Virus record (IMG/VR): IMGVR_UViG_3300030102_004644
Span: 1-27,213 of that record
DNA length: 27,213 nucleotides
Strand: one strand, 5' to 3'
From: a virus
Shown in pieces: positions 7,397 to 27,213 of the stretch (position 1 is its first letter; every line of letters begins with the position of its first letter). The notes below the pieces were generated by a model. The model searched no databases. It worked only from the letters and a program-made list of their open reading frames with translations, and was not told where the DNA came from. The position numbers and the translations under genes are program-made.

Positions 7397-7446
7397 CTAT
7401 ATAGTACATAGTATATAATATATATATAATACATAAGCTCTATATC
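7397..7446 (-). promoter_or_regulatory. AT-rich element upstream of the large terminase
   Basis: About 50 bp are nearly pure A/T, with alternating TATATA runs, between the zinc-knuckle gene stop and the terminase gene. Read on the minus strand it contains ATATAGAGC followed by TTATGTATTATATATA. The same two words, spaced 3 nt further apart, occur in the AT-rich element at 19553-19596 on the opposite strand. Several overlapping TATAAT-like hexamers are present, so a promoter is possible. An easily melted DNA element is an alternative. Confidence 0.45.
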
Positions 7447-7448
7447 GT

Positions 7449-7634
7449 TCATGTACTATAAGCCTCATCCTTCAAGTAGAGATCCTCTCTACGTTCATCG
7501 ATACATCTAGGCACACAAAGCCCGCAACACTTGCACCTTCCCTTGGAATCAGTCCTCAGATGCGTCTCACAGCGTGGGCATAGGCCCATACGCTCTAAAC
7601 GATCCATCCTTCCGTCATCATCATAGATAATCAC
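7449..7634 (-). CDS. Small zinc-knuckle protein in the terminase operon
   Basis: I call a GTG start at 7634, giving 61 residues, because AGGAG lies 6 nt upstream. The longer frame from 7733 would have no good ribosome site and would read through the dyad at 7695-7712. The protein has CPRC followed by CKCCGLCVPRC, enough cysteines for one or two zinc sites, and an acidic tail (ERREDLYLKDEAYST). It sits between the small and large terminase genes. Small zinc proteins in phages often bind nucleic acid or act as adaptors, but nothing here shows which. Function unknown. Confidence 0.6.
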   Translation of the reverse strand: MIIYDDDGRMDRLERMGLCPRCETHLRTDSKGRCKCCGLCVPRCIDERREDLYLKDEAYST

Positions 7635-7694: not shown

Positions 7695-7712
7695 TTTGTA
7701 CCCCCGTACAAA
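7695..7712. promoter_or_regulatory. Dyad operator-like site, copy 1 (spacer CCCC)
   Basis: Perfect inverted repeat TTTGTAC-CCCC-GTACAAA. It lies 60 bp upstream of the GTG start of the zinc-knuckle gene on the minus strand, in the 274-bp intergenic space after the small terminase gene. This is the only copy inside the late block. Confidence 0.75.
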
Positions 7713-8379: not shown

Positions 8380-8485
8380 GGTGAAGTGCCTCCGCTGATC
8401 TGCGCTACGCTTGGTCGGGCGTCCAGATTGTTAGCATACCAACAAATCGACACACCCTGTTCCGCTCCCCCGATTTTGGGGAAAA

Positions 8486-8503
8486 TTCGTACTACCGTAC
8501 AAA
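8486..8503. promoter_or_regulatory. Dyad operator-like site, copy 2 (spacer TACC)
   Basis: TTCGTAC-TACC-GTACAAA, one mismatch from a perfect dyad. It lies 106 bp upstream of the small terminase start and about 490 bp upstream of the first rightward gene. It could therefore control leftward late transcription. Confidence 0.75.
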
Positions 8504-8916
8504 TCTACAATCTCACCTCAATATTTTGTAGGGCTGAAACGTCTACTGGAAGCCAAATAATAGAACCCATAAAGAAAATGGGTCTAATAGGGTTTACAGG
8601 GCATGATATCCATGCTAGGCAGGCTCTGCCTGACGCACTGAAGACGCGGCAGGGGGCCACGCAGTGGCCGCACAGGCTCAGATCGCCACCCGGTTATGTC
8701 GGTTCTAGCCCCGGCTCTCCTACCCCACTGAATGGCGGGGCGGTGTCACCTCTCCCACCTGCGAGGCTGAAGGCTCAGACTACGCCGCCTCGCGGGACAG
8801 CACCCAATGCGCTGATGCGGCTGGCTCCGGCTGGCCGCGCTTGTAGGCGGGGGCGTAAGTCTGGCAGGGCGGCGGCACGATGCCGTTCCTGCGGAGAGGT
8901 TCCCAAAAAAAATCTA

Positions 8917-8943
8917 GGGCTGGGCGGCACTGTCGCCCTGCCC
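8917..8943 (+). terminator. GC-rich hairpin before the first early gene
   Basis: GGGCTGGGCG and CGCCCTGCCC pair over 10 positions with one central T-T mismatch, around a 7-nt loop. It is followed by CTATTCATTTGACAC. It has the same placement and following sequence as the hairpins after later early genes. No gene ends just before it, so it may be a leader or attenuator structure. The downstream T-run is weak. Confidence 0.45.
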
Positions 8944-8990
8944 CTATTCATTTGACACTTTGTCACCACCAACAATCAGGAGACTGTCAC

Positions 8991-9362
8991 ATGGCACTAG
9001 CTTACACCGTCTATCAGATCATCCTCGACGACGAGACTGTTGCTCAAGTCAACAAGGATGGCTGGGGTTCCAGCAACAAGGCTTCAGCCTATGCCAAGGC
9101 TTTGAGCTTTGGCGACCCGACAACCGGCCTCAAGCATGGCTGCTACACCAAGGTCGCGGAGATCATTGCCGACGATCTTGATCATGTCTTTGAGATCGGC
9201 AACGGCGTCGTCCCCTGCGAAGAGGGTCGCATGCGCCGCTACGCAAAGATGACTAGCATCAGCGTCGGCAACATTATCGGCGACGATTTTGGACGCCGCT
9301 GGGTTGTCTCGCCGGTCGGCTTCACGCCGGTCGAAGAGGCCATTCAACAATACGCCACCTAA
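8991..9362 (+). CDS. Hypothetical early protein
   Basis: This 123-residue protein starts MALAYTVYQIILDDETVAQV. I chose the ATG at 8991 because AGGAG lies 8 nt upstream; the longer open frame runs back through the hairpin. The protein mixes short beta-like segments (YTVYQIIL, RRWVVSPVGF) with a helix-rich middle (ASAYAKALSFG, YTKVAEIIADDLDHVFEIG). It has no membrane segment, signal peptide or clear catalytic motif. It is the first gene of the rightward arm, and its leader contains the small palindrome TGACA-CTT-TGTCA. Early expression is likely; the function is not recognised. Confidence 0.75.
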   Translation: MALAYTVYQIILDDETVAQVNKDGWGSSNKASAYAKALSFGDPTTGLKHGCYTKVAEIIADDLDHVFEIGNGVVPCEEGRMRRYAKMTSISVGNIIGDDFGRRWVVSPVGFTPVEEAIQQYAT

Positions 9363-9368
9363 AAACAG

Positions 9369-9390
9369 GGCGGGGCTTCACGGCCCCGCC
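9369..9390 (+). terminator. Intergenic GC hairpin (8-bp stem, TTCACG loop)
   Basis: GGCGGGGC-TTCACG-GCCCCGCC is a perfect 8-bp stem starting 6 nt after the preceding stop codon and preceded by an A-run. The downstream sequence TCTATTCATTTG is only moderately T-rich. It is probably a terminator or a 3'-end stabilising hairpin. The loop is identical to that at 10487-10508. Confidence 0.6.
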
Positions 9391-9438
9391 TCTATTCATT
9401 TGCTCATTTACCAACCAACCCAAACCAAAGGAGATGTC

Positions 9439-10095
9439 ATGAGCAACAAAACTTTCACCGCCGCCGCAGATCGTATCAACCAGATCGGCCTCAACCAGAG
9501 CCGCATCAACACGCTCAAGGGTGACGCAAAGGAGATCACCGCAGAGAGCCAAGGGCTGAAGCTCGACAGCTACGCCCACCTGATCGCTGGCATTGCACCG
9601 GCCAAGCTCACCGCCAAGGCAAATCTGAATGCCAAGGATCGGGTCGCACTGAAGGGCGACCTGATGGATGCCGGTCAACAGACCGACAGCATGGCCGACA
9701 AGCTGATCAAGAATGCAGTCGGTGCGCGGAACGTCTTCCAGATCGGCGGCGACAACTGGACGCCAGCCGCCGTGCTGGAAGTGTTCGACGCAAATGAGAT
9801 CACCAGCGAGGCCAAGCTGATCAAGGCTGTCTCCGGTGACGACAAGAAGAGCAAGGTCGCACTGGCGGTCGAGAAGATCGCTGGCCGTCGTTCAACCAAG
9901 AAGAACGAGAAGGGCGAGCGGGTCGCTGGCGACAAGTGGCTGGGCGGCTTCAGCTACGACGAGATCGAAGAGTTCCACACCGCTCTCGCCGACGCCCTGC
10001 GTACTAGGGGCGAGATGGAAGCTGCCGCACAAGAGGCTGGTGACCAGACCGACCAAGACAACGCCGACGTAAACGAGATGCTCGAAAAGCTCTAG
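9439..10095 (+). CDS. Hypothetical early protein
   Basis: This 218-residue protein starts MSNKTFTAAADRINQIGLNQ. The ATG at 9439 follows AAAGGAGATGTC, a strong ribosome site; a longer in-frame extension would read through the hairpin and leader. Composition is Ala/Asp/Lys-rich and helical, with VALKGDLMDAGQQTDSMADK in the middle. A lysine-rich loop (RRSTKKNEKGERVAGDKW) precedes the FSYDEIEEFHTALADALRTR helix, and the end is acidic (DQDNADVNEMLEKL). It has no membrane segments and no catalytic motif that I recognise. It stands as a single-gene unit between two GC hairpins. Function unknown. Confidence 0.75.
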   Translation: MSNKTFTAAADRINQIGLNQSRINTLKGDAKEITAESQGLKLDSYAHLIAGIAPAKLTAKANLNAKDRVALKGDLMDAGQQTDSMADKLIKNAVGARNVFQIGGDNWTPAAVLEVFDANEITSEAKLIKAVSGDDKKSKVALAVEKIAGRRSTKKNEKGERVAGDKWLGGFSYDEIEEFHTALADALRTRGEMEAAAQEAGDQTDQDNADVNEMLEKL

Positions 10096-10111
10096 CATCC
10101 ACCCCAACCAT

Positions 10112-10135
10112 GGCGGGGGCCGACCGGCCCCTGCC
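10112..10135 (+). terminator. Intergenic GC hairpin (10-bp stem, GACC loop)
   Basis: GGCGGGGGCC-GACC-GGCCCCTGCC pairs over 10 bp with one G-T wobble, 16 nt after the preceding stop. It is followed by CATTTGTTTGACAC. Placement matches the other early-region hairpins. Confidence 0.6.
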
Positions 10136-10182
10136 CATTTGTTTGACACTTTGTCCACCACCAACCAATGGAGAATGCACCA

Positions 10183-10479
10183 ATGAATGCACAACGTCGC
10201 AAAGAGCTTTCCGCAATCATCACTGAGCTAGACGCAATCTCGTTCTATGCGATCGAAGACAAGCTGTCTCAGCTTTCCGACCGCATCGAAAACGTCATGT
10301 ATGACGAGGAGGAAGCCTACGACAATCTGCCGGATGGCCTGAAAAATTCTGCGAAAGGTGAGGCCATGGCTGATGCCATCAGGCTGATGCAGGACGCAGT
10401 GTCGGACATCTACAGCACCATCCAAGAGATGGGTGGCCTGTCAGCATCAGGCATTCTCGAAGAGGTGATAGCGGACTAA
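10183..10479 (+). CDS. Small acidic helical hypothetical protein
   Basis: This 98-residue protein starts MNAQRRKELSAIITELDAIS. The ATG at 10183 has GGAGA 8 nt upstream. An in-frame ATG at 10168 lies within that ribosome site's upstream sequence and is less likely. The protein is mostly helical and acidic, with ALA/LEU-spaced heptads and a central EEEAYDNLPDGLKNSAKGEA segment. Its length and the helix-DNLPD-helix pattern recall many small early phage proteins of unknown function. It stands alone between GC hairpins, with a TTTGACACTTTGTC leader element like that of the first early gene. Confidence 0.75.
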   Translation: MNAQRRKELSAIITELDAISFYAIEDKLSQLSDRIENVMYDEEEAYDNLPDGLKNSAKGEAMADAIRLMQDAVSDIYSTIQEMGGLSASGILEEVIAD

Positions 10480-10486
10480 AAAAATT

Positions 10487-10508
10487 GCAGGGGCTTCACG
10501 GCCCCTGC
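10487..10508 (+). terminator. Intergenic GC hairpin (8-bp stem, TTCACG loop)
   Basis: GCAGGGGC-TTCACG-GCCCCTGC is a perfect 8-bp stem beginning 7 nt after the preceding stop codon and preceded by an A-run. CCATTCATTTG follows. It shares the loop sequence of the 9369-9390 hairpin. Confidence 0.6.
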
Positions 10509-10551
10509 CCATTCATTTGATCATTTACCACCACCAACAAGCGAGGATCAC

Positions 10552-10836
10552 ATGAGAGAAAATCTTGTTCGCAACATGCGGTATGACGATGACGCTGGGG
10601 GCCGTCTCTGGGCTGTCTTTCCCCGCCGGTATTCGGACGAGCGCATCCGGCAATTCTTTCGGATGCACGGCGTCTGGACTGACGGCCACTACCAGCGCAC
10701 CGGCAAGGTCGCTCTAAGCATGGGCGGCGAAGGTGTAAGGTCGGGTGGCCCCGGCTCGTATTACGAGGACGGCTTGGTATTTCGCCGCCAAGGTTCTCGC
10801 GTTCTAGTCACCCAAAGCTGGGGGTATGACATATGA
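10552..10836 (+). CDS. Small basic hypothetical protein
   Basis: This 94-residue protein starts MRENLVRNMRYDDDAGGRLW and is rich in Arg, Gly, Tyr and Trp. Segments such as FPRRYSDERIRQFFRMHGVW and the glycine-rich ALSMGGEGVRSGGPGSYYED suggest a compact beta-containing fold. Its stop overlaps the next start as ATGA (10833-10836), so the two genes are translationally coupled. GAGG precedes the ATG by 5 nt. No family recognised. Confidence 0.7.
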   Translation: MRENLVRNMRYDDDAGGRLWAVFPRRYSDERIRQFFRMHGVWTDGHYQRTGKVALSMGGEGVRSGGPGSYYEDGLVFRRQGSRVLVTQSWGYDI

Positions 10837-11087
10837 AAAACCTGATCAGCCTTTATCACAAGCTGCTAGACGCGCAGCACAATGTATCTCAGGCCATGCA
10901 AAGTGATTGGCCTGCAAGCACCCGCGCCTTCAAGGCCGCTGAGACTAGGGCAAACAGAAAATATTGTGCAGCGGTTGAAGCCTATCTTGTCCAGCACGGC
11001 GTCGAGCCAACAATGCAAAACAAGATAAGCCTGATGACCAAGCTGGCAGTAGGTGAGCGCATGAAAGCTCGTAACAAGGGAGACTGA
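10833..11087 (+). CDS. Small helical hypothetical protein
   Basis: This 84-residue protein starts MKNLISLYHKLLDAQHNVSQ and is basic and mainly helical (RAFKAAETRANRKYCAAVEA in the middle, MTKLAVGERMKARNKGD at the end). Translation is coupled to the upstream gene through ATGA and followed at 1 nt by the next gene, so these three genes form a short operon. No catalytic motif or family recognised. Confidence 0.7.
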   Translation: MKNLISLYHKLLDAQHNVSQAMQSDWPASTRAFKAAETRANRKYCAAVEAYLVQHGVEPTMQNKISLMTKLAVGERMKARNKGD

Positions 11088-11088
11088 T

Positions 11089-11280
11089 ATGAAGATCATG
11101 ATCGAAGTGAAAAACAACTACGGCAAGCCGGTGGCCTATCCTGTCTGTGTGGCCGCTCACAATTTCGCGGCCATTGCCAAGACTGAGACCCTGACCGCCG
11201 ACACGCTGAAGCTGATCGGCCTTCTGGGGTTTGAGGTCGAGGTCGTCCAGCCTGATCTGTCTGATCTGCTTGGCGTCTAA
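11089..11280 (+). CDS. Small hypothetical protein
   Basis: This 63-residue protein starts MKIMIEVKNNYGKPVAYPVC. Its layout is strand, helix, strand (MIEVKNN, AAHNFAAIAKTE, KLIGLLGFEVEVVQ), with a short tail PDLSDLLGV. GGGAG precedes the ATG by 8 nt. It is the last gene of a three-gene unit ending at the hairpin 11286-11307. Function unknown. Confidence 0.7.
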   Translation: MKIMIEVKNNYGKPVAYPVCVAAHNFAAIAKTETLTADTLKLIGLLGFEVEVVQPDLSDLLGV

Positions 11281-11285
11281 ACATT

Positions 11286-11307
11286 GCGGGGGCCTCATGG
11301 CCCCTGC
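11286..11307 (+). terminator. Intergenic GC hairpin (9-bp stem, TCAT loop)
   Basis: GCGGGGGCC-TCAT-GGCCCCTGC pairs over 9 bp with one G-T wobble, 5 nt after the preceding stop. It is followed by CCATTTCTTAATTTG and then dyad copy 3. Confidence 0.6.
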
Positions 11308-11318
11308 CCATTTCTTAA

Positions 11319-11336
11319 TTTGTACCATCGTACAAA
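11319..11336. promoter_or_regulatory. Dyad operator-like site, copy 3 (spacer CATC)
   Basis: TTTGTAC-CATC-GTACAAA is perfect, and the flanking A/T pair extends it to 8-bp arms. It lies 49 bp upstream of the AAA+ ATPase start, between that gene and a terminator-like hairpin. Confidence 0.8.
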
Positions 11337-11385
11337 TGGCGGCAACCAACAGCCGCACAACAGCCAGCAAATGGAGATGCACCAA

Positions 11386-12447
11386 ATGGCTACATTACAG
11401 CAAGCAATGACTATCGTTCATCAGTCGATGATTTCGCAGGCTCAGTTCGCGCATGACCGTGACGCAAAGCGCGTCGTCGTGATGCTGCAAGCCGACCCCG
11501 GCACCGGCAAGACAAGCTGCCTTCAGCAAGGTGCTGAAGAGACCGGCGCACGTTCATCCATCCTGTCTATCGCCCAGTATGACCCCGGCGAGTTTCCGGG
11601 CTGGACGGTATCGCAGGGCGACGGCATGGTTCGCCTGCGTCCTGATTGGATGCCAGTGAACACGCCAGAAGAGCAGGCACGCGCAGAGGCTGGCGAGGTC
11701 GTCGGCTGGCTGATCGTGGACGAGCCGCAGAATGCACCGACCATGATGATGAACATCTTGGCGCAGCTTGTGAACGAGCGGCGCGTAGGTCGGCACTATC
11801 TGCCGGACGGCTGGGCTATCGTTCTGGCTGGCAACAAGGACAGCAACCGCGCTGGCACCAACAAGATGCCGACGCATCTGCGTGACCGCCTGACGATCAT
11901 TGAGCTTGAGGCAGAGGTCGAGACCTTCCTTGCCTACGCGAACAAGGTCGGCATGTCCCACCTGATCACCGGCTTTGTCCGCGCACGGCCCGACGCACTG
12001 AACGGCTTCAAGCGTGACGCTGTCGCATGGTCGTCGGCGCGTGGCCTTGATCGCACCAATACCATCTTGTCGTGGGGGCTGGACGCTGTGACACAGCAGA
12101 TCGCCATTGCCGCGCAGATCGGTGAGGGCATGGCCGCTGAGCTTGCTGGGTTCATCCGCATCCATGACAGCATGGGTGACCCTGCGGAAGCCCTTGCAAA
12201 CCCGTCCACCTATCCGGTGCCGGACGCTGACCCGTCAGCCACCTACGCTATGTGTGCGGCTCTGTCCAACATGGCCACGGCTGACAATTTCGCTGCAATG
12301 CTCACCTATCTGAAGCGGTTCGATCATCAGGAGTTCGCCGCCTTCACGATCAAGGACGCATGCAACCGCAAGCCTGAGTTGAAGAAGGTTCCCGCGCTGC
12401 GCGACTACCTTCTTTCGCACGGCAAAGACCTTCTGTTGAATTGGTGA
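11386..12447 (+). CDS. MoxR-type AAA+ ATPase
   Basis: This 353-residue AAA+ ATPase shows Walker A ADPGTGKTS (residues 36-44), Walker B WLIVDEP (108-114), a sensor-1 asparagine in LAGNKD (N150) and a likely arginine finger in MPTHLRDR (R166/R168). The C-terminal half is helical. I chose the ATG at 11386 because GGAGA lies 9 nt upstream; the longer frame would read through hairpin and dyad. MoxR-family ATPases work with von Willebrand A partners as chaperone or remodelling complexes (RavA-ViaA, CoxD-CoxE, NorQ-NorD are known pairs). The next gene encodes just such a partner, 5 nt away. The phage target of this pair is unknown. Confidence 0.85.
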   Translation: MATLQQAMTIVHQSMISQAQFAHDRDAKRVVVMLQADPGTGKTSCLQQGAEETGARSSILSIAQYDPGEFPGWTVSQGDGMVRLRPDWMPVNTPEEQARAEAGEVVGWLIVDEPQNAPTMMMNILAQLVNERRVGRHYLPDGWAIVLAGNKDSNRAGTNKMPTHLRDRLTIIELEAEVETFLAYANKVGMSHLITGFVRARPDALNGFKRDAVAWSSARGLDRTNTILSWGLDAVTQQIAIAAQIGEGMAAELAGFIRIHDSMGDPAEALANPSTYPVPDADPSATYAMCAALSNMATADNFAAMLTYLKRFDHQEFAAFTIKDACNRKPELKKVPALRDYLLSHGKDLLLNW

Positions 12448-12452
12448 TCGCT

Positions 12453-13610
12453 ATGGATGCTACAACAAAAATCGCTAGGGCCAAGGCCCAGCTTGCCTAC
12501 GACCAGCCTTTCTTTGGGGTGTTCGCTTTGGACACCCCCTTCATCCAAGATGATGATCAGCCGACCATGTGTACCAATGGTCAGTGGATCAAGTGGAACA
12601 GTGAGGCTGCGCTGCGCTGGTCAGACAGTGAGCGTCAGTTCGTCATCTGTCACGAGATCATGCACATTGCCTTGGAACACTGTGTCGAGATCAAAGAGAT
12701 CGATGGCGAACCGGCAGATCGCAAGCTGGTCAATGTCGCCATGGATTATGTGATCAACGCGCAGTTGATTGAGGCCGGCCTGATCATGCCGGAAGGCGGC
12801 CTGTATGACCCGCAGTATCGGGGCATGGGCTGGCTTCAGGTCTATCGCCTGCTGAAGAAGATGTCGCCGCCTGACAGGCCCCAGCCCCAGCCATGGGGCG
12901 GTGAGGTCGGCACCCCGAAAGACGGTCAGGGCAACACTCTGACCGGCGAGGCTGCCAAGCAGCATCAGAACGATATCAACATCCGCATGACCAAGGCCGC
13001 GCAGACGGCTGAGGCGCGGGGCGTGGGCAAGCTGCCAGCCGGTATCCAAGAGGCCGTCAGCAAGCTGCGTCAGACCAAGGTGCGGTTTGAGGATGTTCTG
13101 TTGCGGTTCATTGGCGGTGACACGCCAGAGGACTACAGCTTCCGCAAGCCTCACAAGAGGGGCTGGCACGAACATGGCCTGTATCTGCCCACAATGCTCA
13201 ATGAGGGCGTCGGTGATATCGCCATGCTGTTTGACTGCTCTGGCTCAATGTCCACGCCAGAGCTTGAGCAGGGCTTCTCTGAGGTCAAGTCTCTGGTCGA
13301 GGATTTCTGCCCCCGCTCTGTGACTGTCGTGCAGTTCGACGGCGAGGTGCAGAAGGTCGATACATTCGATGATGGCGACTTCATCGACAAGATCGAGTTC
13401 ACCGGCAGGGGCGGCACCAGAGTGGAGCCAGCCTTCAAGTATCTGGATCGGGCTGACGTTCCGCACGATCAGATCATCGTGTTCACCGACATGGGTATCC
13501 ATGACTATCCAGATATCCATCCCGATGTGCCGGTGCTGTGGGTATCGACTACATCACACTTTGCCGACCCGCCATTCGGCGAGACGACTGTGATTGAGGT
13601 GGGGGCCTAG
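12453..13610 (+). CDS. VWA-domain protein with metallopeptidase-like HExxH motif (DUF2201-like)
   Basis: This 385-residue protein has two parts. The N-terminal part has CHEIMHIALEH, a zinc-peptidase HExxH motif (H67, E68, H71), followed by DYVINAQLIEAG, as in DUF2201_N putative metallopeptidases. The C-terminal part is a von Willebrand A domain with an intact metal site: DCSGS (D261, S263, S265), GGTR (T322) and FTDMG (D346). A Pro/Gln-rich linker lies near 138-165. The ATG at 12453 is preferred because GGTGA lies 5 nt upstream; a GTG at 12444 overlapping the ATPase stop is the alternative. It is the partner of the upstream MoxR-type ATPase. Whether it cleaves protein is untested. Confidence 0.85.
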   Translation: MDATTKIARAKAQLAYDQPFFGVFALDTPFIQDDDQPTMCTNGQWIKWNSEAALRWSDSERQFVICHEIMHIALEHCVEIKEIDGEPADRKLVNVAMDYVINAQLIEAGLIMPEGGLYDPQYRGMGWLQVYRLLKKMSPPDRPQPQPWGGEVGTPKDGQGNTLTGEAAKQHQNDINIRMTKAAQTAEARGVGKLPAGIQEAVSKLRQTKVRFEDVLLRFIGGDTPEDYSFRKPHKRGWHEHGLYLPTMLNEGVGDIAMLFDCSGSMSTPELEQGFSEVKSLVEDFCPRSVTVVQFDGEVQKVDTFDDGDFIDKIEFTGRGGTRVEPAFKYLDRADVPHDQIIVFTDMGIHDYPDIHPDVPVLWVSTTSHFADPPFGETTVIEVGA

Positions 13611-13620
13611 CGCCCCCACC
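13598..13620 (+). terminator. Hairpin embracing the VWA-gene stop codon
   Basis: GGTGGGGGC-CTAGC-GCCCCCACC is a perfect 9-bp stem whose loop contains the TAG stop codon of the VWA gene. Dyad copy 4 begins 6 nt later. There is no T-run, so it may be a 3'-end stabiliser or a weak terminator. Confidence 0.55.
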
Positions 13621-13625
13621 AAACA

Positions 13626-13643
13626 TTCGTACCATCGTACAAA
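13626..13643. promoter_or_regulatory. Dyad operator-like site, copy 4 (spacer CATC)
   Basis: TTCGTAC-CATC-GTACAAA. It ends 14 nt before the ATG of the next gene, directly against its Shine-Dalgarno (TTGGAGA). A bound protein here would sit at the transcript's 5' end or over the initiation region. Confidence 0.8.
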
Positions 13644-13657
13644 TTGGAGATGCACTA

Positions 13658-14434
13658 ATGAACAAGACCACTTTCAAATACATCGAAGCACTGAAGGCAA
13701 AACTTCAGTCTGAGATTGACATCTGGACACCTGTCGTGGGCAAGGAGCTTATGCTCGACTGTCTCAAATATGGCGACACCAAATATGAATGGTCGCCAGA
13801 AGGCCGCGCTGCCTATGATGTCTATGCAAGCGAGTTGGACTACCATGCCGGTCGCTATCTCGCCAAAGCCTTTGACGCAACCCTTAAAACCTTGAGGCGT
13901 CTTAGGAAGACGGTATCGGAGCGTGAAGAATACAATCCGATGTTCAACCACAAGGTGAATAGCAGATTGTGGGTCAATCAAACCATGTCGAGACAGTTCA
14001 AGTCTGTGGCGAACACAATAAACATAGACCCAGATCTGGCTCTTGAGAACCAAGGCGAGGCAGACTACGCAAGGCGGGTGGAGTTCAATGTCCCCATGTC
14101 TTGGCACCGTAGCGTCTATGAGCGCGGCCTTGCGGTGATCAAATCTGGCAAAGGAAAGCACCTTGTCATCAGTGCGAAGCCTACGCCCATGCCATGGGTC
14201 GAAGAACAGGGGATGATTGTTTTCAAGTGCAAGACAATCTTCTTCAGGCGCAGGCACGGCGAGGAGATCGACGGCTGGCTGGTCCTGTTCAGTCACGGCA
14301 CCAACTCTGACGAGAACCCTGTCGTGGGTGATGACGGCAAGCTGCGACTGCCGCATGCGTTCCACACTGACCTGCGCCGGTCTGTCAGTCTTCTGAACAG
14401 TCGGACGTTTCGGTCACTATCCGACATGCTCTGA
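13658..14434 (+). CDS. Hypothetical early protein
   Basis: This 258-residue protein starts MNKTTFKYIEALKAKLQSEI. The N-terminal half is helical with a basic stretch (ATLKTLRRLRKTVSEREEYN). The C-terminal half looks beta-rich (KHLVISAKPTPMPWVEEQGM, then IVFKCKTIFFRRRHGEEIDG). There are no membrane segments and no motif I can name. GGAGA lies 9 nt before the ATG and dyad copy 4 lies 14 nt before it. A strong terminator follows at 14442-14469, so it is a single-gene transcription unit. Function unknown. Confidence 0.75.
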   Translation: MNKTTFKYIEALKAKLQSEIDIWTPVVGKELMLDCLKYGDTKYEWSPEGRAAYDVYASELDYHAGRYLAKAFDATLKTLRRLRKTVSEREEYNPMFNHKVNSRLWVNQTMSRQFKSVANTINIDPDLALENQGEADYARRVEFNVPMSWHRSVYERGLAVIKSGKGKHLVISAKPTPMPWVEEQGMIVFKCKTIFFRRRHGEEIDGWLVLFSHGTNSDENPVVGDDGKLRLPHAFHTDLRRSVSLLNSRTFRSLSDML

Positions 14435-14441
14435 TCTGGGA

Positions 14442-14469
14442 AGCACCAGCCTCACGGCTGGTGCTTTTT
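14442..14469 (+). terminator. Rho-independent terminator
   Basis: AGCACCAGCC-TCAC-GGCTGGTGCT is a perfect 10-bp stem followed by TTTT. It starts 8 nt after the stop of the 258-residue gene. This is the clearest classical intrinsic terminator on the plus strand of the window. Confidence 0.9.
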
Positions 14470-14511
14470 ATGACAGTAGTACAGAGAGCAACCATTCCGA
14501 TGGAGGATTGA

Positions 14512-15300
14512 ATGCAGATCATCACACAAGCAGAGGCAAAGGCGAGGGGACTGACCAAGTTCTTTACCGGCAAGCCCTGCAAACACGGACACATTTCCCA
14601 GCGTTGGGCATCAGGGGGCTGCATCGAATGTCAGCTTTCCAAGCGTCGTGCTGCGAACGCAAAGCGTCTGAGTGCTGAGTGGGAGCAATACAAGCGCGAT
14701 AATCAGCATCGCTTTGGCATTCCTATCATGTCTCGACAAGAAGCGAAGGACGCTGGCTCGAACTTTTATTTCACAGGACATGCTTGCGTCAATGGTCACA
14801 CGACAAAGCGAAGCACCCACACCCGCGAATGCTATGGATGCAGGGATGCGAAGAGGGCCGAATACAAAAAGCGGGGGCTGGCTCAACTGTATGACAAGAG
14901 GTCGAGAGAGAAGCACAAAGAGAAGATCAGAGCAGCAATGAAAATCTGGCGATCTCAAAATGCGGATCACCGCCGTGCTTACATGAAAAAATGGACGCAG
15001 GAGAACCGTGAACACCGACGCCTGTACAAGCAGGCAAACAGGGCAAGGATTGCCGAGCAGACCGTGGCTCGACAAGAGCGAACACGACAGGCAACACCGT
15101 TGTGGGCGAACAGAGACAGCATCCTGCTTAAATACAAAGAGCGTCAGCGAATGACGGCTATCACTGGCGTGCTGCATCATGTCGATCACAAAATACCGCT
15201 GCAAGGCGAAAATGTTTGCGGCCTTCATGTGGCTGCAAATCTGCGGGTAATCCCTGCGCGAGACAATCTGAGTAAGAACAACAAATGGGAGACAGCATGA
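14512..15300 (+). CDS. HNH endonuclease with duplicated zinc knuckles
   Basis: This 262-residue, very basic protein carries two copies of an FTGxxCxxGH...C..C knuckle. The first is KFFTGKPCKHGH with C37/C40, the second FYFTGHACVNGH with C107/C110. A long Arg/Lys-rich helical linker follows (about 111-215). The C-terminus is an HNH-type nuclease: HHVDHKIPLQGENVCGLHVA then NLRVIPARDNLSKNNK, with likely metal and catalytic residues H222/H223, D225, H226, N243 and N252. This layout is common among free-standing phage HNH and homing endonucleases. GGAGG precedes the ATG by 5 nt. Its stop overlaps the next start (ATGA). It may be a mobile endonuclease or have a packaging or recombination role. Confidence 0.75.
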   Translation: MQIITQAEAKARGLTKFFTGKPCKHGHISQRWASGGCIECQLSKRRAANAKRLSAEWEQYKRDNQHRFGIPIMSRQEAKDAGSNFYFTGHACVNGHTTKRSTHTRECYGCRDAKRAEYKKRGLAQLYDKRSREKHKEKIRAAMKIWRSQNADHRRAYMKKWTQENREHRRLYKQANRARIAEQTVARQERTRQATPLWANRDSILLKYKERQRMTAITGVLHHVDHKIPLQGENVCGLHVAANLRVIPARDNLSKNNKWETA

Positions 15301-15542
15301 TTACATACGACGACGCACCAAACTATCGATACAGAGGCTATCGATACGTTCCGCAGATCATGCACGAAGACGAGGAAGGCATCAGGAAGGCCAGCCACTT
15401 TGTGTTCAAGGTCGAGAACTACAACCCCAACCGCAGCGGCATTGCCCTGCCTGACTTCAGCATCAATGCGTCACCCTATCGCTGGCTGACCTATGACGAG
15501 TTCAAGCATCACATCGACAACTTGGGAGAAGATGATGACTAA
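15297..15542 (+). CDS. Small acidic hypothetical protein
   Basis: This 81-residue protein starts MITYDDAPNYRYRGYRYVPQ. I prefer the ATG at 15297, which has GGGAG 6 nt upstream and overlaps the HNH stop as ATGA, to the ATG at 15285, which has no ribosome site. It is rich in Tyr and Asp, ends with the acidic LGEDDD, and contains a SPYRWLTYDEFKHHIDN segment. It is part of a coupled run of four genes (HNH to the membrane protein). Function unknown. Confidence 0.65.
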   Translation: MITYDDAPNYRYRGYRYVPQIMHEDEEGIRKASHFVFKVENYNPNRSGIALPDFSINASPYRWLTYDEFKHHIDNLGEDDD

Positions 15543-15717
15543 GAACGAACGTGATAACCTGAAGGTTATCGGAAATCTTTTGCAGATCATGTTTGAACAG
15601 GGTCTGCCGTTTAAGTGGGCGGTTGAGTATGAGGCCGCTGTCGAGGCTTACAAGACTATGGGCGGTCCAACACCAGATGTTGGCGTTCATCCAGAAAGCA
15701 GGGGGTTAACGAAATGA
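15535..15717 (+). CDS. Small hypothetical protein
   Basis: This 60-residue protein starts MTKNERDNLKVIGNLLQIMF. GGGAG lies 6 nt before the ATG at 15535; another ATG at 15532 would be only 3 nt from it. A single amphipathic helix (LKVIGNLLQIMFEQGLPFKW) is followed by a second helix (VEYEAAVEAYKTMG) and a Pro/Gly tail. It overlaps its upstream neighbour by 8 nt and its downstream neighbour by ATGA. No family recognised. Confidence 0.6.
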   Translation: MTKNERDNLKVIGNLLQIMFEQGLPFKWAVEYEAAVEAYKTMGGPTPDVGVHPESRGLTK

Positions 15718-15884
15718 GGTACTACGCATATTTTCTGGTTGGCTTTATCGGCATGATCTTTGGTGCCGGTATGGCTGAAGACCCTTCAATGAACCTTTTC
15801 TACGGCGTTGCCGTGCTTTATCCATCTGTCGGCCTTTTGTGCTACAGTATGGTCAGGCTCGTGATGAAAAAGCATGGCCACTGA
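15714..15884 (+). CDS. Small two-helix membrane protein
   Basis: This 56-residue protein reads MRYYAYFLVGFIGMIFGAGM, then AEDPSMN, then LFYGVAVLYPSVGLLCYSMV and the basic tail RLVMKKHGH. It has two hydrophobic segments (about 4-20 and 28-50) joined by a short acidic loop, with positive charge at the C-terminal side. Its start overlaps the upstream stop as ATGA, so it is translated with the preceding small genes. An inner-membrane location is likely. Size and topology would fit a small holin-like or superinfection protein, but no lysis enzyme is nearby, so I give no function. Confidence 0.6.
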   Translation: MRYYAYFLVGFIGMIFGAGMAEDPSMNLFYGVAVLYPSVGLLCYSMVRLVMKKHGH

Positions 15885-15886
15885 CT

Positions 15887-15947
15887 TGTGCGGTGAGTTG
15901 TTGGTAGGCTTGAGGGACGCCTAAAGTATGTCGTGTTTCACCGCACA
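15887..15947 (+). other. Long-range inverted repeat in an intergenic leader
   Basis: TGTGCGGTGA (15887-15896) and TCACCGCACA (15938-15947) form a perfect 10-bp stem across a 41-nt interval. The interval contains a smaller AGGC/GCCT stem around a 9-nt loop. Together they could fold as a two-level RNA structure. It sits in the 173-bp gap after the membrane-protein gene, ahead of another hairpin (15985-16018). I do not recognise a known RNA family. Confidence 0.4.
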
Positions 15948-15984
15948 GGTGCATCCCTAACACACATACACCCTCACCAAGAGC

Positions 15985-16018
15985 GAAAGGGGCAGGACGC
16001 ACGGGTCTTGCCCCTTTC
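15985..16018 (+). terminator. Strong 14-bp intergenic hairpin
   Basis: GAAAGGGGCAGGAC and GTCTTGCCCCTTTC pair over 14 bp with one G-T wobble around a 6-nt loop. It is followed by CATTTCGTACC and dyad copy 5. It probably ends the transcript of the small-gene cluster upstream, although the T-run is short. Confidence 0.65.
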
Positions 16019-16021
16019 CAT

Positions 16022-16039
16022 TTCGTACCATCGTACAAA
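16022..16039. promoter_or_regulatory. Dyad operator-like site, copy 5 (spacer CATC)
   Basis: TTCGTAC-CATC-GTACAAA. It lies 3 nt after the 14-bp hairpin and 18 nt before the next ATG. Confidence 0.8.
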
Positions 16040-16057
16040 TCCAACCACGAGGTAATG

Positions 16058-17239
16058 ATGTCTGAAAATGAAAACGACCTCTTCAATGAGGTGATGCTGG
16101 CATTGGCGATGCCAAATCGCATGCTGGTAAATCGTGACGTTCAACGGCCACAAACGCACAAGGGTGCGGATTGGTCTATACGAAACACCCGCCAGCTTTT
16201 GTCTGGCTCAACCAAGTTTATCGTAAGTGACAGCCTGTTGCATCACGCTGTTCTTGCATCACTGGTCAAGCCAAAGGCTCTTCTTGAGGCTTGCAAGTGG
16301 GCTATGCCACCCATCGAAAATATGTGGATTGAGTGGAATGAACACCGCCGCGTAGAACTTATGGCAGAGCAGCTTAAATCCATGGGCATCAAGATAGCTG
16401 AAGAGAGTGACGACGCATATCGCTCTGAGCGAGTGGGGTATCACATATCCCCTGTCAAAGGGCTGAACATGTATTCCCTTTTCTTTCGGGATACTGACAA
16501 CAAAATCGCTGTTCCTCTAAATGCTTTCTACATCAAGAACGAAGAGACCATATCGGCAGAAGAGTTCGTGCGAGACCGCGAAACAAATATGTTTCACACA
16601 CAAAAAGACTTGAAAGATACCGATGCAGGTCTGGAGTTTTTTGAAGAGCATCAGGCTGTGTATGGCAAGGTTCTCTTGGGAACACCCTACTGTTCCGACA
16701 TATTTTCTGGGCCTGAGCATCAGAAGTATATCGATCAAGTGTGCCGACGCATGACGTTTGGCATGCACCCACTTGCTGGTGCTGCGTATCAAACCAGCTT
16801 TGTGAACCCGGTGGATAGTGGCATCTTAAAAACGCCCAGTGATTTCAAGCGTTGGTTCGACGCATCAATACAGATGAATTATGGGGACGCTCGTTTTCTG
16901 ATGACGCTGATGGCGCTTATCAACTACCCCAACATTCTGATTGAGCGTGATCAGCCAGAGGCGCAGCAGCGCATGATTGCTGGTCGTCGTGTGCCTCGCA
17001 ACGAGATGCGGGTGATCGAACTTGATCTGCCCAAGCCTCGCGGCGTCACCCGCTACCAGCGCATGTTCAAGGGCATGGGTACGCCTAAGCGTCAGCATGT
17101 TCGGCGCGGTCATGTCCGCCGGATAAAGCACAAGGACGGCACAGAGACCACTCGCTGGATACCTGAGATGGTTGTCGGTGACCCAAGCCTTGGCCGCATC
17201 GATCACCAGTATGATTTGAAGACAAAGGGGTCGAAATGA
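16058..17239 (+). CDS. Conserved-looking phage protein of unknown function
   Basis: This 393-residue protein starts MSENENDLFNEVMLALAMPN. ATGs occur at 16055 and 16058; the second is better spaced (5 nt) from GAGG. The body is mixed helix/strand with no membrane segment. The C-terminal ~90 residues are strongly basic, with RGVTRYQRMFKGMGTPKRQH, VRRGHVRRIKHKDGTETTRW and IPEMVVGDPSLGRIDHQYDL. That pattern (basic H.VRGH.R, then a W-I...GD.SLG motif) recurs at the end of uncharacterised phage proteins as I recall it. It could bind nucleic acid. The stop overlaps the next start as ATGA. Function not recognised. Confidence 0.75.
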   Translation: MSENENDLFNEVMLALAMPNRMLVNRDVQRPQTHKGADWSIRNTRQLLSGSTKFIVSDSLLHHAVLASLVKPKALLEACKWAMPPIENMWIEWNEHRRVELMAEQLKSMGIKIAEESDDAYRSERVGYHISPVKGLNMYSLFFRDTDNKIAVPLNAFYIKNEETISAEEFVRDRETNMFHTQKDLKDTDAGLEFFEEHQAVYGKVLLGTPYCSDIFSGPEHQKYIDQVCRRMTFGMHPLAGAAYQTSFVNPVDSGILKTPSDFKRWFDASIQMNYGDARFLMTLMALINYPNILIERDQPEAQQRMIAGRRVPRNEMRVIELDLPKPRGVTRYQRMFKGMGTPKRQHVRRGHVRRIKHKDGTETTRWIPEMVVGDPSLGRIDHQYDLKTKGSK

Positions 17240-17424
17240 AAAAGCCCTTTCAAACATACAAGTGTCATGTTTGCGGAAAGCTGCATGACAAGAACAAGGT
17301 CGATAATCAAAAACTTGGAAACACCCACATGATGGATGGCAGTATTGGCGGCAAAGCTGTTTTATTTTGCTTCACCAAATCATGCGTAGTTCGTTACAAA
17401 GAGGAGAGGGCCAATGAAGCCTAG
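17236..17424 (+). CDS. Small putative zinc-binding protein
   Basis: This 62-residue basic protein has CHVCGKLH (C10, C13, H17) and a second cysteine pair CFTKSC (C45, C50), enough for one zinc site. It starts MKKPFQTYKCHVCGKLHDKN, coupled to the upstream gene by ATGA. It overlaps the next gene by 11 nt. No larger family recognised; a nucleic-acid or adaptor role is a guess. Confidence 0.65.
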   Translation: MKKPFQTYKCHVCGKLHDKNKVDNQKLGNTHMMDGSIGGKAVLFCFTKSCVVRYKEERANEA

Positions 17425-17611
17425 AAGAGCAGACGCTTATTTCGTGTGTCAGCAGCAGTTGGCAGAGGTAATCAGGGCAACTGAACGCATCTTGCTTATG
17501 GACGAGTTCCCTGATCCATCTCCAGAAAAAGACATGCTCGACATGGCTGTCAGCAATTTGCAGCAAGCGCAGAGTGATTTGATGAAGGCGCGTTTGCGTA
17601 TGCACGAATAA
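17414..17611 (+). CDS. Small helical hypothetical protein
   Basis: This 65-residue protein starts MKPRRADAYFVCQQQLAEVI. It forms two likely helices split by a Pro-rich turn (MDEFPDPSPEKDM), the second being LDMAVSNLQQAQSDLMKARL. GGAG lies 7 nt before the ATG inside the upstream gene. It is the last gene before a strong hairpin (17612-17639). It resembles many short coiled-coil accessory proteins; no function can be assigned. Confidence 0.6.
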   Translation: MKPRRADAYFVCQQQLAEVIRATERILLMDEFPDPSPEKDMLDMAVSNLQQAQSDLMKARLRMHE

Positions 17612-17639
17612 AAATGGGGGGCCGAAAGGCCCCCCATTT
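17612..17639. terminator. Bidirectional terminator between convergent genes
   Basis: AAATGGGGGGCC-GAAA-GGCCCCCCATTT is a perfect 12-bp stem with a GNRA-type tetraloop. It begins at the base after the stop of the rightward gene. Read on the minus strand it is followed by TTATTCG after an ATTTTT tract, so it works well for the leftward primase-helicase transcript. On the plus strand the T-tract is shorter. Confidence 0.85.
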
Positions 17640-17681: not shown

Positions 17682-17699
17682 TTTATACCATCGTACAAA
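17682..17699. promoter_or_regulatory. Dyad operator-like site, copy 6 (spacer CATC)
   Basis: TTTATAC-CATC-GTACAAA, one position off the consensus. It lies between the convergent terminator and the stop codon of the primase-helicase gene, 9 bp from that stop, where neither neighbour starts. A simple promoter-operator role is hard to see at this copy. Confidence 0.7.
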
Positions 17700-19552: not shown

Positions 19553-19596
19553 CTATATAGAGCATATTATGTATTATATATAATATATATAAATAC
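19553..19596. promoter_or_regulatory. AT-rich element upstream of the primase-helicase
   Basis: About 45 bp of nearly pure A/T lie between the RusA-like gene and the primase-helicase. On the plus strand it holds ATATAGAGC, then TTATGTATTATATATA, the same words as in the element at 7397-7446 but on the opposite strand. It contains TATAAT-like hexamers on both strands. It could be a promoter for the leftward gene or a melting element of an origin. Confidence 0.45.
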
Positions 19597-19617: not shown

Positions 19618-19635
19618 TTTGTACTAGGGTACAAA
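19618..19635. promoter_or_regulatory. Dyad operator-like site, copy 7 (spacer TAGG)
   Basis: TTTGTAC-TAGG-GTACAAA, a perfect dyad. It contains the TAG stop codon of the RusA-like gene (19624-19626) and lies 145 bp upstream of the primase-helicase start on the minus strand. Confidence 0.75.
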
Positions 19636-22521: not shown

Positions 22522-23003
22522 GCGATGTATCAGAAGCTGCCATTCACTTTGAGGCTGTCAAAACATCGATGTCTCAAAGCAAGGCCGGAACCATACTGCG
22601 GATAGCCATTCACCCGAATGATGTGCCGCCCAGCCTGCATACCGATTGGGTTGGATCAAGGTACATGGTGGCAATGGTGAAGCTGGATGACGAGGATCAG
22701 CCAGAGATATCTGATGATCAGCGTCAGGCAAAAGCTCTAGTCGCCAGTGCAGGTATGCTTTGCAGGAACGAAGACTTCCGCAAATTCTTGGACAGCCAAG
22801 ACCTGCTATCTTTCTCGCCAGATCACTGGAACGTGGATGGAGATGGAGATAAGTATTCAGACTTAGAGGCCTTAACAGCAAGATGCTTGCGTAGTTACCT
22901 TCACATCGAAAGCAGATCAGAGTTGGCCACAAACTCTGAGGCAAGGGAGAGGTTCAAGAAACTTCAAGAGGATTTCACGCTATGGAAGAAAAACAGACCG
23001 TAG
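22518..23003 (+). CDS. Conserved-looking phage hypothetical protein
   Basis: This 161-residue protein starts MSDVSEAAIHFEAVKTSMSQ, coupled by ATGA. It has KAGTILRIAIHPNDVPPSLH and VGSRYMVAMVKLDDEDQPEI near the front, LVASAGMLCRNEDFRKFLDS in the middle, and CLRSYLHIESRSELATNSEA near the end. This order (G..L...IHP.DVP, G.RYM.A.V.L, G.LC....F..FL) recurs in accessory proteins of alphaproteobacterial phages as I recall it. No enzyme motif is visible. Its place among recombination genes suggests a DNA-metabolism accessory, but that is only context. Confidence 0.65.
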   Translation: MSDVSEAAIHFEAVKTSMSQSKAGTILRIAIHPNDVPPSLHTDWVGSRYMVAMVKLDDEDQPEISDDQRQAKALVASAGMLCRNEDFRKFLDSQDLLSFSPDHWNVDGDGDKYSDLEALTARCLRSYLHIESRSELATNSEARERFKKLQEDFTLWKKNRP

Positions 23004-23194
23004 AGGGCGCATCTTCACAGGAGTTCATGGGTATCAAAGACATCAGTGAACTTCTGTCGATGACACGCAAACAAGCCTACTACATCACAAAGACAGACAA
23101 AGACTTCCCAAAGGGCATCAGCCTAAGCCCGAGGATCAAGAGGTGGAAAACTGCTGAAGTGATGTCTTGGCTAGAAACCAAACAGGACGATTAA
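22982..23194 (+). CDS. AlpA/excisionase-like HTH regulator
   Basis: This 70-residue protein has the layout of AlpA/excisionase-type winged helix proteins. FMGIKDISELLSMTRKQAYY (about 15-34) is the helix-turn-helix. A wing-like DFPKGISLSPRIKRWKTAEV is followed by a final helix ending in a conserved Trp (MSWLETKQ). Such proteins act as small DNA-binding regulators or recombination directionality factors. It overlaps the previous gene by 22 nt. Dyad copy 8 begins immediately after its stop codon. It is a candidate to bind the dyad sites, but nothing direct links them. Confidence 0.75.
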   Translation: MEEKQTVEGASSQEFMGIKDISELLSMTRKQAYYITKTDKDFPKGISLSPRIKRWKTAEVMSWLETKQDD

Positions 23195-23212
23195 TTTGTA
23201 CGATGGTACAAA
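23195..23212. promoter_or_regulatory. Dyad operator-like site, copy 8 (spacer GATG)
   Basis: TTTGTAC-GATG-GTACAAA, a perfect dyad whose spacer is the reverse complement of CATC. It follows the HTH gene's stop with no gap and ends 14 nt before the next ATG, just ahead of its GGGAG site. Confidence 0.8.
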
Positions 23213-26800: not shown

Positions 26801-27213
26801 TCTCTCAGGTGAGAGGACGAGTAATCCATGGGTATGGCTGAACGGTCTGCTATTTCTCGTCTGTAGTTCTTCTCACGAGGAAATGCTGTAGCGACAGTGA
26901 ATATACCGTCTCCAGACCTAAGCCTGTTTGGCGGTATGAAAGCAAGGCGCACAACAATCTCTGGAGACTTCCTTGGTGGATTCTTCATAGAAAGCTGTAA
27001 GTCGCCACCGGGTCGAGTTTCGCTTATGACATCAGGGCCATCTCTGTAACCCTGCTTCGCCCAAGCCTGCATGACATCGTATATTGGCTGCTCTAGATCA
27101 GTGTACTTGCTGCTATCAAGAAACTCTTGAAGGTGATTTCTTTGCAGCATGTGATGAAGGCCAAAGTCTTGCAAGAACGACACTTTTAGCCCAGTAGACT
27201 TGTCCTGACCCGC
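23860..27213 (-). CDS. Giant internal/ejection-type virion protein, LPD38-like C-terminus (N-terminus off the right edge)
   Basis: The frame is open to the window edge; a GTG at 27183 is internal and ten more codons continue upstream, so 1,117 residues of the C-terminal part are visible. One block contains AYLYALHAKERNAYISSINE and GSGMRDAEADAIINW. A helical section holds FKSLAPKIGFERAAFAARNV, then TVDFAKGGEFKPFMNSVYLF and YNASLQGSFALINAATR. That pattern resembles LPD38 and neighbouring domains of giant polyvalent phage proteins, which are packaged and ejected with the DNA. A hydrophobic patch follows (VSTVMAGIILDQLNA). The end is a charged coiled coil. Enzymatic domains, if any, lie beyond the window. 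Confidence 0.7.
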   Translation of the reverse strand, partial: AGQDKSTGLKVSFLQDFGLHHMLQRNHLQEFLDSSKYTDLEQPIYDVMQAWAKQGYRDGPDVISETRPGGDLQLSMKNPPRKSPEIVVRLAFIPPNRLRSGDGIFTVATAFPREKNYRREIADRSAIPMDYSSSHLREAQNSIVYGKSYDVLKKALKLVTLGSEEKAEKAANTFGDLFQDRFLPIAQVVDKLRAQGATIDDAFDPYLQESLYHGRVGNRIEEAKNAFYEPAADRVKDLNLDEGTNYEGLAAASDFVRQAEKESGSKRLAVVDAYLYALHAKERNAYISSINEGETAGSGMRDAEADAIINWVNSLDTNNRQVLQDVRGIVRDIVADTNKVRVEGGLIPADFNTGEVEIDEEGNTVTAPDFQEYVPLRGILDPDGEASEEGSFGAARGQTFSIRGKEDRRMLGRSEYATSVLASVFMQNQNAVIRSEKNAVGKSFLDLIRAEPEAMSEYAVELQSPPMRRGLVQGAVKMMYDFQAKNDDSILVVKEGGKEILIKTRDPRVAKAMKGSTGASNQTLSGIVRGFGKINRYLSNINTTYNPEFLVTNLVRDVQTAGVNVNQYEIDGLTKEILTNYKSAFKGVKDVVRGMRRNKNTGQFELPSTITKEMAESAGFDINNATDADVFRLFQIYGGQNALNTMDTLQDQINGIKGVIGDIAESGARGKWNSVKNSFVGKGAGSILNLLDDYNTVVENAIRVATFKSLAPKIGFERAAFAARNVTVDFAKGGEFKPFMNSVYLFYNASLQGSFALINAATRSSKVRKIWVSTVMAGIILDQLNASLSEEDEDGELVFDKAPEYILEHNILLPDPFGVTDRSHISIPLPYGLNIGFNLGRSLSRLMRGGYDIGEAGSSIFMTAADALNPLGGTNNFFNFAAPTVADPFVDLMRNEEEFSGRPIVKETSPFDPTPPPNSQLYWSTTSPSLKWATDNLNKLTGGSKVESGLLDFSPDIIDYWLNYLTGGAGMFVNRTLDFTTQTIPTALSEGFEDEFVRQTPFLRKVFYSVSEREDVSGFIENRNKVLKAREVLEEVIKSRDPSAIRDVRSRYQKELSVFGQIRAINSARNRILRKLRQIDANPNLSDDQKEKATERLRDNLEALIQRGNKVMNEADI

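Follow-up and report, generated by a model that had tools for sequence, protein, structure and literature searches.

In T4-like phages, the promoter early stem-loop (PeSL) is, in the account of PMC4503421, which describes Arbiol 2010 and Comeau 2014, a repeated intergenic stem-loop that shuffles genes between related phages. Cluster K mycobacteriophages carry one 13-bp sequence, SAS, at the translation starts of a subset of genes, and about half of its copies have the 17-bp inverted repeats of ESAS, with a variable spacer, just upstream; the function of SAS is unknown (PMC3203893). The stoperators of L5 and cluster A number about 24; they are scattered, lie mostly between genes and serve a single repressor. 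They are asymmetric and oriented, occur in temperate phages, vary in consensus between phages and mediate deletions by recombination between sites (PMC5712189). Type I hammerheads of bacteria and phages combine a CUGAUGA and GAAA core with three helices and an open stem I, and often lie close together, flanking small open reading frames (PMC6155905). Here we describe a recurring intergenic unit in the early region of IMG/VR record IMGVR_UViG_3300030102_004644, a 27.2-kb virus record from an uncultured tailed phage, which was analysed over its full 27,213 nucleotides (the window).

We read the unit as the boundary of a gene cassette that combines a structured RNA, in some units an operator, and a leader, and we consider this joint reading probable. 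Seven units were delineated, with genes called by a simple open reading frame caller:

8917 to 8990, plus strand: unit 1, with hairpin 8917-8943, tag ATTCATTTG 8946-8954, a small palindrome TGACA-CTT-TGTCA, leader CACCACCAACAA, ribosome site AGGAGA 8978-8983 and ATG 8991
9368 to 9438, plus strand: unit 2, with hairpin 9368-9391 (loop TTCACG), tag ATTCATTTG 9394-9402, a leader, ribosome site GGAGA 9430-9434 and ATG 9439
10112 to 10182, plus strand: unit 3, with hairpin 10112-10135, tag CATTTG 10136-10141, leader TTTGACACTTTGTC, ribosome site GGAGA 10170-10174 and ATG 10183
10487 to 10551, plus strand: unit 4, with hairpin 10487-10508 (loop TTCACG), tag ATTCATTTG 10511-10519, leader ACCACCACCAACAA, ribosome site GAGGA 10543-10547 and ATG 10552
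11286 to 11385, plus strand: unit 5, with hairpin 11286-11307, dyad 11319-11336, an A/C-rich leader, ribosome site GGAGATGCACCA 11373-11384 and ATG 11386 (AAA ATPase)
13598 to 13657, plus strand: unit 6, with hairpin 13598-13620, whose loop holds the stop codon TAG of the VWA gene, dyad 13626-13643, ribosome site GGAGATGCACTA 13646-13657 and ATG 13658
15985 to 16054, plus strand: unit 7, with hairpin 15985-16018, dyad 16022-16039, ribosome site GAGG 16049-16052 and ATG 16055

The seven GC hairpins had been listed in a first-pass annotation, and all are present, each at an early-gene boundary, with folding energies between -18 and -27 kcal/mol and z scores, relative to dinucleotide shuffles, between -3.1 and -6.9. 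Between 8380 and 17720, ten 32-nt stretches fold at -18 kcal/mol or below; all ten, which include the seven hairpins, are intergenic or span a stop codon, while intergenic DNA accounts for only 831 of 8,812 bases. The hairpins had been described as lying mostly just after a stop codon. This holds except for the hairpin at 8917, which closes a non-coding stretch of more than 500 nt between the divergent terS (minus strand) and the first early gene, and that at 15985, which begins 101 nt past the last stop; the hairpin at 13598 carries the stop in its loop. The loop TTCACG is indeed common to the hairpins at 9369 and 10487 and recurs in relatives as GGGGCGG-TTCACG-CCGCCCC. The stop-in-loop hairpin of unit 6 is 100% paired across nine sequences, with covariation at 5 of its 9 pairs.

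Downstream of the hairpins, the proposed layout, in which a tag or dyad is followed by a leader and then by a ribosome site, was borne out, and its dyad, the tag ATTCATTTG (3 vs 0.01 expected) and the leader CCACCAAC (3 vs 0.27 expected) all exceed chance, but CATTTG alone does not (5 vs 3.1 expected). The leader CCACCAAC is exact in three units (8966, 10158 and 10531), variant in others and missing from the unit at 13598. From hairpin end to ATG, units 1 to 7 measure 47, 47, 47, 43, 78, 37 and 36 nt, so that six of the seven fall within 36-47 nt. Two hairpins absent from the earlier list lie nearby:

14438 to 14468, plus strand: hairpin with TTTTT, a canonical terminator, after the gene at 13658-14434
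17612 to 17639: symmetric hairpin between convergent genes, its T-tail better on the minus strand

The hairpins might instead be ordinary, inefficient intrinsic terminators, with the likeness between units reflecting recent duplication and no further regulatory logic. Terminator-like matches are enriched (42 vs 16.4 expected), intergenic duplications are common in phages, and the tags and leaders of units 1-5 are confined to the subclade of the window. Units 2-5 meet the loose T criterion of the scan, unit 6 has no T-tail, and a canonical U-run occurs at 14438 only. However, the hairpins covary, the layout persists across the clade with unrelated sequences, and in relatives the hairpin gives way to a ribozyme-like element at a fixed distance from the start codon; we regard the terminator explanation as unlikely. 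Outside the subclade, CATTTG leader types matched seven extra contigs that have neither a homologue of the window nor a dyad, and these were taken as chance.

Ahead of unit 7, the roughly 100 nt of non-coding sequence at 15885-15984 has, provisionally, a pseudoknotted architecture that is conserved in relatives (L017:5165-5262, minus strand; L105:8281-8388, minus strand; L026:3080-3183, plus strand; L023:9993-10090, minus strand). With P1-P4 picked by hand, every pair is kept in these four relatives, and P3 of the window retains just 7 of 11. The window copy has no convincing Rfam match and its plain fold is no better than shuffles.

The units are recombination boundaries, and hybrid units lie exactly where genes have been lost. 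Five near relatives (G001-G005) were compared; IMG/VR contigs are partial, and pieces were joined solely where adjacent within one record. These relatives retain the units and differ in genes. The order in the window is g1-U2-g2-U3-g3-U4-g4-g5-g6-U5-AAA, where U marks a unit, g an early gene and AAA the ATPase gene. G001 has another gene at the g1 position (24% identity) and a different one at the g4/g5 position. G002 and G005 lack g3-g5 and run directly from g2 to g6, through a unit that follows unit 3 up to and including the hairpin and is unit 4-like thereafter: its left part is identical to unit 3 at 32 of 33 positions (vs 13-14 of 33 for unit 4), and its right part to unit 4 of G001 at 47-48 of 53 (vs 40-41 of 55 for unit 3). 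G004 lacks g1 and has there a unit made of the unit 1 hairpin and the unit 2 leader, which matches unit 1 of G005 on the left (33 of 35) and unit 2 of the window on the right (42 of 46); in the same contig, unit 3 is joined to g6 at the second repeat GGAGATTGCACCAATGAA.

Unit 1 is conserved in G001 and G005 ahead of different genes, the unit 2 leader precedes g2 in 6 of 6 near contigs, and the unit 3 hairpin remains with g2 as its leader varies. Across G001-G005, the hairpin thus travels with the upstream gene and the leaders are reassorted. Because the units resemble each other, they would double as recombination homology through which intervening genes are gained, lost or swapped. The idea of modular early cassettes, put forward in the first-pass annotation, is supported by this pattern, as g1, g3, g4 and g5 have been gained, lost or replaced in relatives exactly between units, with hybrid units at the junctions. 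The accompanying contrast with long operons is too strong, as the region also holds several tight multi-gene blocks (10833-11280, 15297-15884 and 17236-17611).

The RNA component of a slot can itself differ between contigs. In the slot that follows orthologous g2, some contigs have a hairpin, others a stop-in-loop hairpin, a hairpin together with a dyad, or a ribozyme-like element. In more distant members of the clade, early intergenic spaces carry CTGATGA...GAAA...GTC elements in which CUGAUGA, GAAA and a NUH cleavage site are joined by three helices, and which we predict to be self-cleaving hammerhead-type ribozymes. A pattern scan returned 37 stretches, whose shared fixed letters follow by construction from a pattern built on the first examples; the covarying stems are not fixed by the pattern, apart from the beginning of the 3′ flank and the 3′ strand of stem I. 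Scanned by structure, the fetched loci yielded 39 elements. Across 32 aligned sequences, 99.6% of cells are paired and both partners vary in 14 of the 21 pairs, counting a loop II pseudoknot, and shifting the partner strand abolishes the pairing and covariation signal. The 5′ hairpin into which the downstream product would refold is 100% paired, with covariation at 4 of its 5 pairs. Our own model of the ribozyme has 63 matches in 64 loci, a redundant set in which some loci overlap.

In 36 of 37 cases, a start codon equipped with a ribosome site follows the predicted cut at a distance of 35-47 nt. This range is similar to the spacing in the window, in a loose comparison of cut-to-ATG with hairpin-end-to-ATG distances. 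Rfam model RF00163 has no match in six clade records, and RF03152 (RAGATH-1-hammerhead) reaches at best 18.4 bits against a cut-off of 56.3, with one element tested alone. No hammerhead at the Rfam gathering level was found in the loci scanned, nor was the ribozyme found by blastn in named phages. One 24.7-kb record of a distant relative carries at least five hammerhead-like elements (L088, 1123-3887, minus strand; L086, 7852-7939, minus strand), four of them within 2.8 kb and some with other stem I sequences, in an array of ribozyme-bounded small genes. Because the same slots in relatives often hold a predicted self-cleaving ribozyme, transcript ends at the units, which the first-pass annotation took to terminate each cassette separately, may be formed by cleavage or processing as readily as by termination.

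The second component is dyad A, TTTGTAC-N4-GTACAAA, with arms of 7-8 bp and a spacer fixed at 4 nt. The window holds 10 sites at two or fewer mismatches (vs 0.05 expected). The first-pass annotation had treated the dyad as part of the early-gene unit, which is correct for units 5-7 but incomplete, as the element is genome-wide, with sites outside 8917-16060:

7695 to 7712: dyad TTTGTACCCCCGTACAAA, near the small gene at 7449-7634
8486 to 8503: dyad between the divergent terS (minus strand) and early genes (plus strand)
17682 to 17699: dyad 9 nt from the stop of the primase/helicase gene, where two gene ends converge
19618 to 19635: dyad that overlaps the rusA-like gene at its stop codon
21069 to 21086: dyad within the sak-like coding sequence
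23195 to 23212: dyad that directly follows the AlpA-like stop codon and precedes the next gene

Dyad A is specific to the clade. It occurs in 2-12 copies in each of 23 further virus contigs, and in 7-12 copies in most of the larger records; all 23 contigs carry homologues of the window in the same order. No such palindrome network was found in 50 kb examined of HTVC027P, 023Pt_psg01 and CRP-7. Codons beneath the sak dyad are conserved at 0.88 against a mean of 0.59, placing it at rank 4 among 222 windows in codon-level conservation. The first-pass annotation had named a lack of conservation among the observations that would refute its proposal, and the elements are conserved in the covarying hairpins, in dyads kept across the clade and in the codon-constrained sak site; taken as a whole, its interpretation is partly supported.

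Dyads lie before ribosome sites, over a start codon (G009 28235), over stops (rusA, alpA and capsid), between convergent genes and inside sak, and the spacer is found in both orientations. Such placement points to a DNA site rather than an RNA site. An RNA hairpin was rejected, as the orientation of the spacer does not agree with the direction of transcription and sites overlap stops and face both ways. At two loci of relatives, the Rfam Mu-gpT-DE RNA lies near the capsid gene, close to a dyad (L061:13897-13943 and L047:14509-14562).

The interval that separates a hairpin from a ribosome site is where one would look for a promoter, and TTGACA occurs in units 1 and 3, so that the dyads or CATTTG elements could give each unit its own transcript, as in a true PeSL. 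However, neither element has a -10 partner, sigma70-like sites are not enriched (11 vs 14.3 expected), and dyads also lie at stop codons and inside genes. A promoter for a T7-like phage RNA polymerase was likewise rejected; no single-subunit polymerase of this type was found in the larger relatives, in a search that recovered the positive control CRP-7. We judge the promoter explanation very unlikely. The spread of dyads over the genome, including structural genes and stop codons, is odd for promoters and would suit segregation, packaging, condensation or replication sites bound by a ParB-like or nucleoid-like protein. Against such a role, dyads concentrate at gene boundaries, often immediately before ribosome sites, and no ParB-like protein occurs among the window proteins scanned, which makes it quite improbable.

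A sister lineage (G037, G027, G036, G038, G030, G039 and others) lacks dyad A and carries dyad B, AAAAGTT-N6-AACTTTT. One contig has four copies (vs 0.15 expected), a figure that is not an independent test, as dyad B emerged from an unguided palindrome count and its consensus was chosen on the same data. The two dyads are nearly mutually exclusive by contig, among about 28 A and 9 B contigs of shared ancestry. Slots filled by A or by B according to lineage lie at the AAA/VWA boundary, upstream of terS, and at sak, alpA, primhel/orf18307, g9 and capsid; the exact position within the slot sometimes differs, as at sak. The simplest explanation appears to be that the dyads are operators of a trans-acting factor whose specificity has switched.

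That factor might belong to the host, in which case A and B would mark two hosts and the phage would not encode a regulator for the dyads. Reliance on host regulators is common among phages, and a host shift could explain an operator switch between groups whose structural genes are often 80-93% identical. Yet the sites lie inside or over phage genes at fixed phage slots, and the exact 19-bp dyad, counted with the exact spacer only, occurs in just 3 stretches from unrelated taxa in the genomes of 84,980 species. By estimate this is roughly the chance level; a host regulon built on this exact dyad was therefore rejected, and we hold the host-factor explanation to be rather unlikely.

Among the proteins of the phage, the best candidate for a dyad-binding regulator is AlpA-like:

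22982 to 23194, plus strand: AlpA-like helix-turn-helix protein (Pfam Phage_AlpA, E 2.7e-8, 34 bits vs cut-off 21)

Of 15 A sequences, 13 have a dyad A at the alpA stop codon, and in G038 a dyad B overlaps it; the two dyad types also differ in the helix-turn-helix and the RW region of the protein. These observations are suggestive only.

We propose that the early region is transcribed by the host RNA polymerase. Neither a T7-type polymerase nor a tyrosine integrase was found in the larger relatives, which makes transcription by the host likely and a repressor of the lysogeny type less obvious. The structured RNA at the end of the upstream gene, a GC hairpin here and often a hammerhead-type ribozyme in relatives, may provide each cassette mRNA with its own ends and an open leader. 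The palindromic operator present in some units, with about ten copies genome-wide, would be bound by a trans-acting protein, most simply one encoded by the phage, which could dampen transcription at cassette boundaries. The short A/C-rich leader and ribosome site would then supply the downstream gene with its own translation start. A temporal switch would fit as the role of the dyad network.

Several observations weigh against this mechanism. The ribozyme model has no match in the window or its five closest relatives, and the equivalence of ribozymes to hairpins is argued from position. Most hairpin tails are CATTTG-like rather than T-runs, the T-tails being weak and in one case missing, and the unit 5 leader is longer than the rest. 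No promoter was recognised at the units in a scan for sigma70-type sites. AlpA occurs in both dyad lineages, its differences are confounded with phylogeny (three B sequences) and covariation gave no proof; a repressor network with no accompanying integrase does not obviously serve lysogeny. More tentatively, and with somewhat less than even confidence, we suggest that the units represent a clade-wide standard exchangeable slot in a phage group with no evident lysogeny. Its RNA part would be a hairpin in some cases and in others a self-cleaving ribozyme of the hammerhead type, which has a pseudoknot at loop II and forms a 5′ hairpin after cleavage; its DNA part would be the operator of a genome-wide network switched in specificity as a whole between lineages.

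The units sit in the following setting:

1 to 8.4 kb, minus strand: structural genes, including portal, terminase and terS
8991 onwards, plus strand: early genes
11386 to 13610: AAA ATPase and VWA/metallopeptidase-like pair

After the early genes come the primase/helicase, RusA, an exonuclease, a Sak-like annealing protein and the AlpA-like regulator, followed by the terminal part of a giant LPD38 protein, whose homologue to window 23860-27213 spans 3,106 aa in a relative (L046:2316-11636). The AAA ATPase and VWA pair has relatives in Roseobacter phage CRP-7 and many phages of 72-79 kb. No near DNA match of the window was found among sequenced phages. The large terminase shares 50-58% protein identity with Pelagibacter phages HTVC027P/HTVC023P, 023Pt_psg01 and DSL-LC04, and this kinship suggests that the phage is probably marine. 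Neither a tRNA nor an Rfam RNA was found within the window. The non-coding stretch between terS and the early genes (8380-8916) contains several GC hairpins and differs in G004 and G005. AT-rich TATATA stretches at 7401-7436 and 19564-19592, upstream of terL and the primase/helicase, are inverted repeats of each other and are possible promoters or origins.

Phage mosaicism is well known, and the sequence basis of its recombination sites is rarely visible; the hybrid boundary units display it directly. What hammerhead ribozymes do in prokaryotes and phages is still an open question (PMC6155905), and a covarying ribozyme-like family, fixed before start codons in the slots of relatives' hairpins, makes a role in mRNA end formation directly testable. 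The exchange of dyads A and B at shared slots amounts to a natural experiment on a change of operator specificity across a whole network. The boundary modules thus point to a control system that is now open to testing.

The first-pass annotation had called this organisation unusual for phages, which overstates the case in view of the T4-like PeSLs, the cluster K SAS/ESAS and the L5 stoperators. Like the PeSL as presented in PMC4503421, the units repeat a stem-loop between early genes and show modular gene shuffling, with hybrid units at points of gene loss. They differ from that description in that no promoter was found in them, in their palindromic operator-like site and the ribozyme alternative in relatives, and in belonging to an unrelated phage lineage, since the terminase and portal are closest to HTVC023P/HTVC027P-type and related phages rather than T4-like myoviruses. 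With SAS and ESAS they share a repeated sequence at translation starts and an inverted repeat upstream; in contrast to ESAS, the arms here are 7-8 bp, the spacer is fixed at 4 nt, and copies also occur at stops and inside genes. The 13-bp SAS sequence GGGATAGGAGCCC has no match at two or fewer mismatches, and the L5 stoperator consensus is absent. As with stoperators, one genome carries many dispersed, mainly intergenic copies, and the consensus differs between related phages (A and B), whereas the sites here are palindromic, occur in both orientations and are found without a tyrosine integrase. The ribozyme-like elements share the CUGAUGA/GAAA core, three helices and open stem I of type I hammerheads (RF03152). 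They depart from them in their low Rfam score, in a pseudoknot between loop II and the 3′ flank, in a second copy of the stem I strand able to refold after cleavage, and in their strict placement 35-47 nt before the start codon. PeSLs, SAS/ESAS and stoperators each share some defining features with the units described here and lack others; the units thus appear to work like PeSLs and stoperators combined, while being a member of neither class.

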